DNA from: Rhodocyclaceae bacterium
GTDB taxonomy: Bacteria; Pseudomonadota; Gammaproteobacteria; Burkholderiales; Rhodocyclaceae
Assembly (NCBI GenBank): GCA_019455325.1
Contig: JACFMQ010000008.1
Span: forward strand, 62,001-126,000
Length of the DNA: 64,000 bases
Reading direction: 5' to 3'
The position numbers and the translations under genes were made by a program. Below the pieces are notes generated by a model. The model was not told the origin of the DNA, did no database searches, and saw only the letters and a list, made by a program, of their open reading frames with translations. This document shows, one piece after another, positions 7,831-13,552 of this stretch. Each line of letters begins with the position of its first letter. Position 1 is the stretch's first letter.

Positions 7831-9096
7831 GTGACCGACATCGCCCCGGCTGCGCTGCTGCGCGCCCTGTTCGACACCGCCGTCGCCAGCGCCCGGCCGG
7901 CGCTGCGCGTTCCCGCCTTCCTGCCCGAGCCGCCGGCCGGGCGGCTCGTCGTCATCGGCGCCGGCAAGGCTTCCGCCGAGATGGCGAAGGCGGTCGAGGA
8001 CCATTGGCCGGGCGAACTGTCCGGCCTGGTCGTCACCCGCTACGGCCACGGCGCGCCGTGCGCGCGCATCGAGATCGTCGAGGCCGCGCACCCGGTGCCG
8101 GACGCCGCCGGCGAGGCGGCGGCGCGGCGCCTGCTCGAACGGGTGCGCGGGCTGACCGCCGACGACCTGGTGCTGTGCCTGATCTCCGGCGGCGGTTCGG
8201 CGCTGCTGCCGCTGCCGCTCGCCGGGCTGACGCTGGCGGACAAGCAGGCGGTGAGCCGCGCGCTGCTCGCCTCCGGCGCCGGCATCGGCGAGATGAACTG
8301 CGTGCGCCGCCACCTGTCGGCGATCAAGGGCGGCCGGCTGGCCGCCGCCTGCCATCCGGCGCGCGTGGTGAACCTGTTGATCTCCGATGTGCCCGGCGAC
8401 GACCCGGTGGACATCGCCTCCGGCCCGACCGTCGGCGACCCGACGACCTGCGCCGACGCGCTCGCCATCGTCCGCCGCTACGGCCTCGACCTGCCGCCGG
8501 CGGTGCTCGATGTCCTGCGTTCGGGCCGTGGTGAATCGGTGAAGCCGGACGATGCGCGGCTCGCCTGCGTCGAAACGCACGTCGTCGCCGCGCCGCAGCA
8601 GGCGCTGGAGGCGGCGGCGCGGGTGGCCGAGGCGCACGGCGTCGCCGCGCACATCCTCGGCGACGCCATCGAGGGCGAGGCGCGCGAGGTCGGCCGCGTC
8701 ATGGCCGGCATCGCCCGCCAGACGGCGGAGCGCGGCCAGCCGTTCACGCCGCCCTGCGTGCTGCTCTCCGGCGGCGAGACGACGGTGACGGTGCGCGGGG
8801 GCGGCTGCGGCGGCCGCAACGTCGAGTTCCTGCTGGCGCTCGCCGTTGCCCTCGGCGGGCATCCGCGCATCCACGCGCTGGCCGGCGACACCGACGGCGT
8901 GGACGGGCTGGCCGAGATCGCCGGCGCGCTGCTCGCGCCGGACACGCTGGCGCGCGCCCGCGCGCTCGGCCTGCGCGCCGTGGACGCGCTCGCCGACAAC
9001 GACGGCCACGGCTTCTTCGGCGCGCTCGGCGATGCGCTGGTGACCGGTCCGACGCGGACCAACGTGAACGACTTCCGGGCGATTCTGGTGCTGTGA
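7831..9096 (+). CDS. Glycerate 2-kinase (MOFRL / GckA-TtuD family)
   Basis: Phosphorylates D-glycerate to 2-phosphoglycerate with ATP, feeding lower glycolysis. At 421 aa it matches the class II glycerate kinases, long mis-annotated as hydroxypyruvate reductase (TtuD). Visible signatures are VVIGAGKASAEMAKAVE near the N-terminus, the GGGSALLPLP loop, NCVRRHLSAIKGG, LLISDVPGDD, and the C-terminal MOFRL region with SGGETTVTVRG and AGDTDGVDG. The start is GTG at 7831, 13 nt after mmsA. Together with the tartronate semialdehyde reductase across the promoter it would complete the tartronate semialdehyde-glycerate-2-phosphoglycerate route. Confidence 0.9.
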   Translation: MTDIAPAALLRALFDTAVASARPALRVPAFLPEPPAGRLVVIGAGKASAEMAKAVEDHWPGELSGLVVTRYGHGAPCARIEIVEAAHPVPDAAGEAAARRLLERVRGLTADDLVLCLISGGGSALLPLPLAGLTLADKQAVSRALLASGAGIGEMNCVRRHLSAIKGGRLAAACHPARVVNLLISDVPGDDPVDIASGPTVGDPTTCADALAIVRRYGLDLPPAVLDVLRSGRGESVKPDDARLACVETHVVAAPQQALEAAARVAEAHGVAAHILGDAIEGEAREVGRVMAGIARQTAERGQPFTPPCVLLSGGETTVTVRGGGCGGRNVEFLLALAVALGGHPRIHALAGDTDGVDGLAEIAGALLAPDTLARARALGLRAVDALADNDGHGFFGALGDALVTGPTRTNVNDFRAILVL

Positions 9097-9105
9097 GGGG
9101 CGGGC

Positions 9106-10930
<1,825 letters not shown>

Positions 10931-10938
<8 letters not shown>

Positions 10939-11893
10939 CCGCGGCTCCCTTCTTTTCCGGGATCAGCCAGGAGGCGGCCATCGACACCGCGAGGATGGCG
11001 GCGACGACGCCGAGCGACAGGAACACCGGAATCTTGTACCACTCGACGATCAGCATCTTCGTGCCGATGAAGATGAGCACCAGCGCCAGGCCGTACTTCA
11101 GCAGGTGGAAGCGGCTGGCCAGGTCGGCGAGCAGGAAGTACAGCGCCCTGAGGCCGAGAACGGCGAAGATGTTCGAGGTCATGACGATGAACGGATCGGT
11201 GGTGATGGCGAAGATCGCCGGGATCGAGTCTACCGCAAAAATGACATCGGTAATTCCGATGAGGACGACGACGACGAACAGCGGCGTGAACCAGCGGGCG
11301 CCGTCCCGCATCAGCCACAGCTTCTCGCCGACGAACTCGCGGGTGATCGCCAGGTGGCCGCGCATCCATTTGAGCACCGGGTTCTTCTCCAGATCCGGCT
11401 CCTGCTCGGCGGCCCAGATCATCTTGACGCCGGTGAGCAGCAGGAAGGCGCCGAAGAGGTAGAGGATCCAGTGGAACTGCGCGATCAGCCAGGCGCCGAT
11501 CAGGATCATGATGGCGCGCAGCACGATGGCGCCGACCACGCCGATGATCAGCGCCCGCTTCTGCTGCTCCGGCGGCACGGCGAAGGCGGTGAACAGCAGC
11601 AGGAAGACGAAGATGTTGTCGACCGACAGCGATTTTTCGATCAGGTAGCCGGTGAGGAATTCGGTCGCCTTCAGGTTGGCCAGCGCGCGGTCGGCGGTCT
11701 GGTCGAGCCAGAGCCAGAGCAGGCCGTTGAAGACGAGTGCCAGCGTCACCCAGAGCAGCGACCAGGCGAGCGCCTCGCGCATGCCGACCGCGTGCGCGCC
11801 CTTCCTTTCCAGCGCGACCAGGTCGACGACGATGGCGACGACGACGAAGAGGGCGAAACCCGCCCACATCCAGGCATTGGCGATACCGTCCAT
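10931..11893 (-). CDS. alx: TerC-family Mn2+ exporter, Alx-like
   Basis: Integral membrane protein of the TerC family, 320 aa, nearly the length of E. coli Alx, to which it aligns by eye along the whole chain. Shared stretches are TGYLIEKSLSVDN, FGAFLLLTGVKM, DVIFAVDSIPAIFAITTDPF and LKYGLALVLIFIGTKMLIV. Family members export Mn2+; the acidic residues of the EKSLSVDN and DVIFAVDS segments are the conserved metal-site candidates. A yybP-ykoY Mn2+ riboswitch lies upstream, as for E. coli alx, which supports the assignment. The start ATG at 11893 has a GGAG 5 nt upstream, located just after the stop of the 65-residue ORF. Confidence 0.93.
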
Positions 11894-11903
11894 GGCGCGC
11901 TCC

Positions 11904-12101
11904 TCAGCGTTCGTTGTGCAGACGGCGGAATTCGCCGTCGATGGTCCGGCCGCCGGCGGCGGCGCGGCGCTCGGGCGAGGCCGCGGCCGGCCGCAGGCGG
12001 GAGGCGGCGAGCGTCATGAGCAGGCGGGCGAGGCCGCGCGAGACGAGGTTGAATGCGCCCGCGCGCAGGCGCGAGGCGAGGCGGGAGAGAAGGAATTTCA
12101 T
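11904..12101 (-). CDS. Small hypothetical protein between riboswitch and alx
   Basis: Open frame for a 65-residue, strongly basic, Arg/Ala-rich protein with an amphipathic N-terminal half (MKFLLSRLASRLRAG...). No family is recognised. It is supported by position: it lies between the riboswitch terminator and alx, has a GGAG about 9 nt before its ATG, and ends 10 nt before the alx start, whose ribosome site falls in that gap. It could be a membrane-associated small protein of manganese stress or a leader that couples alx translation. The composition is also what a chance frame in GC-rich DNA can give. Confidence 0.45.
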   Translation of the reverse strand: MKFLLSRLASRLRAGAFNLVSRGLARLLMTLAASRLRPAAASPERRAAAGGRTIDGEFRRLHNER

Positions 12102-12165
12102 GTCGTCGGCTCCGTATCGAGAGGGTTGCTGTCAAAGCCCCCTTGCCGGTGCCGGCGGGTCAACG

Positions 12166-12196
12166 AAAAAGACCTTTGCCGGTACGGCAAAGGTCT
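12166..12196 (-). terminator. Riboswitch expression-platform terminator
   Basis: An 11-bp perfect stem (12196-12186 with 12180-12170; arms AGACCUUUGCC / GGCAAAGGUCU, loop GUACC) is followed on the minus strand by a U run (12170-12166). It shares CCUUUG with helix P1 of the riboswitch, making the two folds mutually exclusive. It could also stop read-through from the lpxH operon. Confidence 0.85.
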
Positions 12197-12300
12197 CGCT
12201 TGCAGAGGCGATGCGCCGTTCGGCCACCGCTTGCCCGGCAGGCCGGGGAACGACGTTCCCGTATTGACGACCTGACGATCCAGCTACTCCCCTTTGGGGT
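12166..12300 (-). promoter_or_regulatory. yybP-ykoY manganese riboswitch controlling orf65-alx-recQ
   Basis: On the minus strand the RNA opens with the hallmark AAAGGGGAGUAGCUG (12295-12281), continues with GUCGUCAAUAC, a GGCCGAAC loop region and GCAAGCGAGACCUUUGCC, all typical of the yybP-ykoY aptamer. Helix P1 can form between CAAAGG (12296-12291) and CCUUUG (12193-12188). The same CCUUUG is also the 5' arm of a terminator hairpin, so Mn2+ binding that holds P1 would block termination and turn alx on. The family is an established Mn2+ sensor. The aptamer start is within about 30 nt of the lpxH stop, so its promoter must overlap the lpxH 3' end. Confidence 0.88.
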
Positions 12301-12326
12301 GGACGCATTCTGCCGGAGCCCCTGGT

Positions 12327-13058
12327 TCAGGTCAACTTCTCGCGGGACAGGCGTTCGCCGTCCCAGACCAGGCATTCGCCGGCGCCGTCGTGCCAGTCGG
12401 CGAGCACCCAGCGTTCGACGTGGATGCCGTCGACGATGTGGTCGTGCGTCGCCGGCCGGTGCGTGTGGCCGTGGATGAAGGTGGCGTAGCCGTGCGCGCG
12501 CAGGAAGTCGTCGGTGGCGCCGGGGTTCACGTCCATCAGGTAGTCGGCGCGGCCGGCCTTCTCCCGCTTGTCGGCCTCGCTCCGCTCGCGCAGCGCGCGG
12601 GCCACGGCGTGGCGCTCGGCGAGCGGCTTTTGCAGGAAGGCGGCCTGCCACTCGGGGCTGCGCGACTGCGCGCGGAAGGCCTGGTACTCGCGGTCGTCGG
12701 TGCACAGCGCGTCGCCGTGCGAGAGCACGAACTGCCATGCCGGCAGGGACAGCACGTAGGGGTCGGGCAGCAGGCGGGCGCCGGCGGCCGCGGCGAAGGC
12801 TTCGCCCATCAGGAAGTCGCGGTTGCCGCGCATGACGTTTACGGCGACGCCGGATTCGGCGAGCTCGCGCAGCGCGGCGACGACGGCGGCGTGCACCGGG
12901 TCGTCGAGGTCGTCGTCGCCGACCCAGTATTCGAACAGGTCGCCGAGGACGTAGAGCGCCTCGGCGGCGCGCGCGCGGCCGCCGAGGAATTTCAGGAAGA
13001 GGGCGTCGAGTTCCGGCGTCTGCTTTGATAGGTGCAGGTCGGAGACGAAGAGGATCAA
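12327..13058 (-). CDS. lpxH: UDP-2,3-diacylglucosamine diphosphatase
   Basis: Lipid A biosynthesis enzyme: hydrolyses UDP-2,3-diacylglucosamine to lipid X and UMP at the inner-membrane surface. 243 aa with the calcineurin-like phosphoesterase metal-site pattern of Lpx[43 protein letters not shown] and a C-terminal [10 protein letters not shown]. It is the last gene of the envelope operon and overlaps ppiB by 4 nt. In many beta- and gammaproteobacteria ppiB and lpxH are likewise adjacent. Confidence 0.96.
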
Positions 13059-13552
13059 ACCGCCTCGGCCTTCTCGATGATCACGTCGTCGACCGGCACG
13101 TCCTGATGGAAGCCCTTGTTGCCGGTGCGCACGTCCTTGATCTTGTCGACCACGTCCATGCCGTCGACGACCTCGCCGAACACGCAGTAGCCCCAGCCGT
13201 TGCCGGACGGAACCTTGAAGTCGAGGAAGTCGTTGTCGACGAGGTTGATGAAGAACTGGGCGGTGGCCGAGTGCGGATCGCCGGTGCGCGCCATGGCGAG
13301 GGTGCCGCGCTTGTTCTTCAGGCCGTTCGCCGCCTCGTTCTCGATCGCATCGCGCGTGTCCTTCTCCTTCATGCCCGGCGCGTAGCCGCCGCCCTGGATC
13401 ATGAAGCCCTTGATGACGCGGTGGAAGACGGTGTTGTCGTAGTGGCCGGCGGCGACGTAGGCGAGGAAGTTCTCGACCGTCTTCGGCGCCTTCTCGGCGT
13501 CGAGCTGGATCGTGACGGCGCCGAAGTTGGTGGTGAGCTTGACCTGGGACAT
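13055..13552 (-). CDS. ppiB: Peptidyl-prolyl cis-trans isomerase B (cytoplasmic cyclophilin)
   Basis: Cyclophilin of 165 aa without a signal peptide, so cytoplasmic; it catalyses proline isomerisation during folding. The catalytic-core motifs [35 protein letters not shown] and [19 protein letters not shown] are intact, including the active-site Arg of FHRV. It overlaps lpxH by 4 nt and follows the exported paralogue by 10 nt. Confidence 0.96.

Follow-up and report, generated by a model that had tools for sequence, protein, structure and literature searches.

The window analysed here is a 64,000-nt stretch of DNA from a Rhodocyclaceae bacterium (contig JACFMQ010000008.1). Its minus strand carries, in order, the end of lpxH with a promoter-like site, an aptamer, a terminator, a small ORF, alx and recQ. 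The features, with coordinates in the window, are as follows.

12335-12307, minus strand: sigma-70-like promoter TTGACC-17-CAGAAT, with its -35 box inside the last lpxH codons
12297-12188, minus strand: Mn2+ (yybP-ykoY) aptamer of the alx type, 80.7 bits by the covariance model R1, of whose 26 rows the window is one
12296-12291, minus strand: P1 5' strand CAAAGG, from the sequence, covariation and folds
12292-12283, minus strand: aptamer word GGGGAGUAGC, read from the sequence
12270-12260, minus strand: aptamer word UCGUCAAUACG, read from the sequence
12265, minus strand: L3 adenosine that probably contacts Mn2+, placed as the equivalent of L. lactis A41 by letter match with the accessible text of PMC6754395
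12201-12188, minus strand: aptamer word AAGCGAGACCUUUG, read from the sequence
12193-12188, minus strand: P1 3' strand CCUUUG, common to the terminator, from the sequence and folds
12195-12166, minus strand: intrinsic terminator with an 11-bp stem, the loop UAC and U5, from the sequence, folding and a terminator scan
12195-12185 and 12181-12171, minus strand: terminator stem arms GACCUUUGCCG and CGGCAAAGGUC, read from the sequence
12170-12166, minus strand: terminator U5, read from the sequence
11904-12101, minus strand: 65-aa small ORF with an N-terminal cationic amphipathic helix and a C-terminal TIDGEFRR tail
10931-11893, minus strand: alx, for a TerC/Alx family metal transporter (TIGR03718, 405.8 bits against a cut-off of 246.4)
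9106-10938, minus strand: recQ (TIGR01389, 814.6 bits, above the cut-off), overlapping alx by 8 nt

These parts are established by the sequence and by comparison with relatives. The initial annotation, made from the letters of the window, had the aptamer, the P1 strands and the 11-bp terminator and their coordinates right on the minus strand, and its 65-residue ORF, alx and recQ agree with the ORF list and with the TIGR03718 and TIGR01389 matches. A Pfam/NCBIfam scan found all of the DEAD, Helicase_C, zinc-binding, RQC and HRDC domains in the RecQ protein. Upstream of lpxH lies a cyclophilin-type isomerase gene (13055-13552, minus strand; Pfam), adjoined by a second similar frame, and both cyclophilin-like frames recur upstream of lpxH in relatives.

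A gathering-level Rfam search gave no match to the window aptamer, which RF00080 scored at 12.1 bits against a gathering cut-off of 45. In control searches, RF00080 reported nothing on the E. coli K-12 alx leader at E values up to 0.1 and scored the E. coli mntP leader at 41.6 bits. A direct scan at the gathering level matched none of 60 related alx leaders, comprising 59 of the 62 complete non-window aptamers (L227, L228 and L229 were left out) and L182. An earlier RF00080 survey had taken only 12 candidates per genome, and the blind spot described here is based on the direct scans instead. Since RF00080 also misses E. coli alx, its miss is not a valid test for the alx subtype, and we rejected it as a refutation of the riboswitch. 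RF00080 is blind to the alx type, E. coli alx included, and manganese regulons read from RF00080 are therefore incomplete.

Two sRNA families, SSRC10 and ar7, outscored RF00080 on the window element and were rejected as its identity, their scores also being far under their own cut-offs. The weak match to SSRC10 (RF02617) covers window positions 12265-12164. The consensus of SSRC10, a Streptococcus sRNA family, holds GGGAGUAGC and, further on, AGCGAGACC, then a hairpin and U's, and the family may be a manganese riboswitch leader.

The covariance model R1 was trained on 26 leaders from the family, that of the window among them and none from E. coli. It recovered the alx leader of E. coli K-12 with 64.4 bits (E = 1.8e-15), a match that makes the window aptamer homologous to a known riboswitch. 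The initial annotation had read a Mn2+ riboswitch here and named a yybP-ykoY covariance search as its check; that reading of the aptamer is upheld by R1, which ties it to E. coli alx, and the check failed in its RF00080 form. The E. coli mntP leader was matched weakly by R1 in the same small search (20 bits, E = 5e-4). Both E. coli leaders, alx and mntP, are Mn-responsive according to the accessible text of PMC9603457.

The window's genome contains a second riboswitch, located before a GDT1 (UPF0016) gene and RF00080-positive at 72 bits (G000:C14:9254-9385, equal to locus L001:1501-1632). R1 matched this GDT1 leader weakly in a small search (19 bits, E = 9e-4). When R1 was run on the whole genome, it gave three matches at E values up to 10; only the window copy was strong (E = 5.7e-17), and the GDT1 leader was absent from the three. 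Because of this genome-wide absence, the link between the alx-type and the mntP/GDT1-type aptamers rests on weak scores. Judged by these sequence models, the window element is an alx-type member of the yybP-ykoY class, well apart from the mntP/GDT1 type, and two aptamer subtypes of one class coexist in the window's genome.

R1 matched 60 of 61 related loci, of which 24 were training rows and 36 were not; its one miss, G087, was also motif-less in a word search. Among 80 named alx loci of other bacteria, R1 gave 45 matches at E values up to 1, including 23 with E below 1e-10; Xanthomonas, Stenotrophomonas, Aeromonas, Dechloromonas and others are represented among the matches. Two Comamonadaceae bins carry a pair of alx-type aptamers arranged back to back, one on each strand. 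Their second copies (L085:3367-3473 and L117:3559-3720, both minus strand) scored 58.8 and 34.5 bits; one aptamer of each pair stands before alx and the other before a divergent second gene, which is TerC by Pfam in L085 and looks alike in L117.

The window aptamer has L1 GGGGAGUAG, L3 with the putative Mn2+-contacting A, and AGNAGACC. The constancy of the aptamer words across relatives is partly by construction, as they were used to pick the leaders, and does not count as evidence. In L. lactis, the Mn2+-contacting L3 reads UCA41AU43UC in the accessible text of PMC6754395, and by those published letters the window's UCAAUAC stands against UCAAUUC. We infer Mn2+ as the probable ligand. An element sensing alkaline pH, or another metal with the same fold, seems improbable to us: an E. 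coli alx reporter rose about 3.5-fold at pH 8.5 alone (PMC9603457, accessible text), but the same text has pH and Mn acting together and not pH instead of Mn, and the L3 letters fit the Mn2+-binding L. lactis aptamer (PMC6754395, accessible text). Since E. coli alx also responds to alkaline pH (PMC9603457, accessible text), Mn2+ need not be the only signal here, and by analogy the window element may respond jointly to pH and Mn.

The folding energy of 12160-12305 was better than that of all 200 dinucleotide shuffles (z = -3.56). Across 62 distinct aptamers, helices P1, P3.1 and P4 keep their pairing through two-sided changes, which come from related rows, are not independent events and include misplaced 3' ends for L211 and L219. 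The outer pair of P1 was AU in 35, CG in 19, GU in 4 and UG in 1, and P3.1 pairs varied as CG 32/GC 12/UA 7 and as AU 27/GC 25. The hairpin arm co-varies with P1, with CAAGG/CCUUG/GGCAAGG in some leaders and CAAAGG/CCUUUG/GGCAAAGG in others. The score far under the RF00080 cut-off would suit a chance hairpin after lpxH that is no riboswitch at all, a view contradicted by the covariation, the homology to E. coli alx, the conservation and the recovery of held-out rows by R1, and so improbable that we give it almost no weight.

The terminator was the longest of four terminator-like sites in 8900-12450, with 13 pairs by the scan count, where shuffles led us to expect 1.3 sites. Eighteen leaders resemble that of the window and form its group. 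Their minimum-energy folds contained a complete P1 in 16 cases, the window included, when the aptamer was folded alone, and an incomplete P1 in the other two, whereas the terminator took the P1 strand in all 18 full-length folds. The doubling of the P1 strand as a terminator arm, as initially proposed, is thus borne out throughout the group, and the closing strand of the aptamer is common to an intrinsic terminator, as in an antitermination riboswitch. The terminator is favoured at equilibrium by 17.4 kcal/mol in the window; therefore, the switch must be kinetic and decided during transcription. In the terminator fold, CCCCAAAGGGG (12299-12289, minus strand) could form a small hairpin over L1 and the 5' strand of P1, and its letters are identical in all seven aligned leaders of the genus; this hairpin may lock the OFF state further.

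A hairpin followed directly by a U-run was found in all 18 leaders of the group, and a recheck with ends set by R1 found it in 17 of 17 relatives. Among the other leaders (n = 43, ends from R1), 40 had a comparable hairpin, and two had four U in the next seven bases. In these two (L217 and L223), CGTCTTTC and TGTCTTTC follow an 8-bp hairpin, both interrupted.

The site TTGACC-17-CAGAAT was the sole promoter-like site on either strand of 8900-12450, with 0.1 expected. In each of the 18 group leaders, the best promoter-like site agreed with the consensus at 9 of 12 positions; of 2000 random 75-nt windows, 19 did as well. The site preceded the aptamer word by 15-22 nt in 17 leaders and by 43 nt in G062.

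The distribution of these elements was examined in 106 alx loci of the family, that is, 109 places minus four partial ones (G094:C173, G213:C117, G118:C207 and G195:C76) plus G004. A complete aptamer was present in 63 of the 106; L182 and L225, which have an aptamer whose 3' end was not located by rule, stand outside the 63. Adding G087, which lacks the aptamer, brings the window's group to 19 loci. In the alx phylogenetic tree, the alx genes of 17 of the 18 group leaders and of G087 fell within one 23-row branch (support 100/99), which also holds five rows without an aptamer and in which the internal order is unresolved; the alx of G004 was too short for the tree. The simplest reading of the sequences would be a single origin of the terminator platform with later losses.

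An intact small ORF of 62-92 codons lies between the terminator and alx in 17 of the 18 group leaders. The exception is G119 (locus L158), where the ORF is cut to 19 aa. The 17 small proteins are basic (net charge +6 to +12), with an N-terminal cationic amphipathic helix, which in the window protein is predicted to span residues 2-35, and a C-terminal tail G-[ED]-x-R-R, mostly [VIT][IFL][DE]GE[YFW]RR. Beyond the helix, the AlphaFold model of the window protein is weak, with a mean pLDDT of 70 and a pTM of 0.33. No Pfam or NCBIfam match to the window protein was found at E values up to 0.001, and 15 members searched against Pfam at E values up to 1 gave only two matches, each in a single member: DUF6779 (E = 0.018) and TOR1L1_N (E = 0.23).

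Among 199 family genomes, the small ORF was matched in 24, of which 14 had the match beside alx by tblastn (E values up to 5.7e-4); the ten weaker matches were not beside alx and were dropped. Across the order, 18 of 349 genomes gave a match at E values up to 0.001. Two of them (G000 and G026) represented the alx-linked ORF, and the other 16 gave 17 loci, at which tblastn matched neither alx nor recQ. Ten of the 17 loci contain an open frame that includes the tail, and the two of these frames given to Pfam were FxsA. On these grounds we rejected the idea that the small ORF is more widely distributed across the order.

The 65-residue ORF of the initial annotation evolves as a protein. pS exceeded pN in all seven small-ORF pairs (pS 0.24-0.55, pN 0.07-0.25), with a modest margin in G006-G002 and G000-G001, where pN was more than half of pS. 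In the two other reading frames of five of those pairs, pS was below pN in six of the 10 comparisons, equal in one and above in three, with an excess of at most 0.31 versus 0.20. These values are signs that purifying selection probably acts on the small ORF.

In 12 of the 17 intact cases, the stop of the small ORF is directly joined to a stretch that resembles GGAG or GGAA and lies 7-12 nt ahead of the alx start, with overlaps such as TAAGGAG, TGAGGAG, TAGGAG and TAAGGAAG. The stretch at the stop is TAAGGGA in G061. This junction suggests that the small ORF and alx are probably translationally coupled. The main rival to a functional protein is that the small ORF is only a translational coupler, a leader ORF for alx whose sequence hardly matters. 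The stop junction would fit this view, as would the poorly conserved middle of the protein, the high pN in the two pairs above and the 19-aa remnant in G119, whose start is still preceded by a ribosome-binding-like site and whose end overlaps that of the alx start. However, the start, the basic helix and the G-[ED]-x-R-R tail are kept in 17 of the 18 leaders, pS is above pN in every pair, and G072, G127, G137 and G088 have no such stretch after the stop. We consider a pure coupler possible but doubtful, and prefer to read the small ORF as a real protein that would often also serve as a coupler.

In 13 of the 19 loci of the window's group, recQ starts no more than 150 nt from the end of alx, and it does so in none of the 87 other alx loci, among which L172 ends soon after alx and gives no verdict on recQ. 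In G004 the contig ends inside alx, leaving 18 judgeable loci in the group, and recQ was not found in this incomplete genome. In five of the 18, recQ was not within 150 nt of alx: in G155 it follows about 1 kb downstream, in G072 the distance is about 11 kb, and in G127, G062 and G073 it is on another contig. G087 has kept alx-recQ with no aptamer. Because of these non-adjacent loci and of G087, recQ linkage and the riboswitch are separable. recQ was not beside alx in the 80 named loci of other bacteria, with flanks of up to 4 kb, some shorter. The window recQ was the only strong RecQ match in its genome, the second match being partial and 33% identical.

Within the window, the scan of 8900-12450 on both strands found no promoter-like site between alx and recQ. 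The initial annotation had placed alx and recQ in one unit, a reading that the 8-nt overlap, the lack of a promoter-like site between the genes and the linkage in 13 of the 19 loci support at the level of sequence; it had also named a strong separate recQ promoter as contrary evidence, and none was seen in this consensus scan. The riboswitch might instead govern the small ORF and alx only, with recQ expressed from its own promoter inside alx or independently of read-through, its adjacency being mere neighbourhood. We regard this as rather unlikely. The five judgeable loci without an adjacent recQ and the retention of alx-recQ in G087 speak for it, and internal promoters need not fit the sigma-70 consensus, but the two genes overlap in the window, the sole promoter-like site of the region is that of the riboswitch, and most loci of the group keep the linkage. 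As far as the sequences go, the recQ link to alx is conserved, although neither universal nor inseparable from the switch. The prediction from a common unit is that recQ rises with manganese.

In the accessible text of PMC11087558, Mn2+ stabilises P1.1 of the L. lactis riboswitch and blocks the terminator hairpin, which leads to read-through. The window has the L. lactis geometry; therefore, by analogy, a transcriptional ON switch would be the best explanation. We consider it highly probable that an alx-type Mn riboswitch controls the small ORF, alx and recQ as one unit via transcription antitermination. Transcription would start at the sigma-70-like promoter at the end of lpxH. At little Mn2+, the terminator hairpin would take the P1 3' strand and RNA polymerase would stop at the U-run; once Mn2+ binds between L1 and L3, P1 would hold and the polymerase would read on. 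The alx product would then help to remove or redistribute Mn2+, and the small ORF would give a basic protein that seeks the membrane surface. With its stop abutting or lying in the alx ribosome-binding stretch, alx translation would probably be coupled to it, and recQ, starting within the end of alx, would be carried on the same message.

Manganese riboswitches guard metal transporters, and a conserved DNA-repair helicase downstream of one would tie metal overload to genome maintenance. The small protein family, whose complete form was seen in these searches only between the riboswitch and alx, is a candidate TerC/Alx partner. We tentatively suggest that in one branch of the betaproteobacterial family the Mn riboswitch may have been rebuilt as a transcription switch over a new small basic membrane-surface protein, acting as a partner or tuner of Alx, over Alx itself and over RecQ, such that RecQ-dependent repair would be raised at excess manganese, a picture we hold to be speculative as a whole. 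Neither the aptamer class, nor alx as its target, nor the P1/terminator mechanism is new. The openly licensed PMC literature showed no operon joining recQ to a manganese riboswitch in its titles and abstract starts, no alx riboswitch with a small protein by title among the matches listed, and nothing for a yybP-ykoY riboswitch with alx and a terminator. As far as these literature searches tell, the novelty lies in the family of small proteins and in the conserved link to recQ. A further new result is the blind spot of RF00080 for the alx type.

Among known systems, the E. coli alx/mntP Mn2+ riboswitch is similar in its alx aptamer (R1, 64.4 bits) and in its target gene alx. In E. coli, the alx switch works chiefly at the level of translation. 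Unlike E. coli alx, the window has a U-run terminator on the P1 strand, plus the small ORF and recQ downstream. Rfam RF00080 describes the same class, through E. coli alx, and has a positive GDT1 copy in the window's genome, whereas the alx type falls under its cut-off (12.1 bits here, none of 60 relatives at the gathering level).

The small protein shares the tail type [VI][IF][DE]GE[YF]RR with FxsA (PF04186). The tail alone matches, and the PF04186 domain was not found in the small ORF (15 members against Pfam, E values up to 1). The FxsA tail was also seen in L237, L243 and other loci of the order, two frames of which were tested by Pfam. This tail may be a short motif common to inner-membrane proteins. 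E. coli MntS/MntP, set beside our system by description only (accessible text of PMC4361602), offers the likeness of a small protein in Mn homeostasis; MntS is induced at low Mn and MntP at high Mn according to that text, and unlike MntS, the window's small ORF sits inside the riboswitch unit.

The L. lactis yybP-ykoY riboswitch, a transcriptional ON switch, shares its P1.1 3' segment with the terminator as in the window (accessible text of PMC11087558), and its L3 UCAAUUC resembles the window's UCAAUAC when compared by published letters only (accessible text of PMC6754395). In contrast to L. lactis, the OFF fold of the window can add a CCCC/GGGG mini-hairpin over L1, and the genes downstream are the small ORF, alx and recQ.
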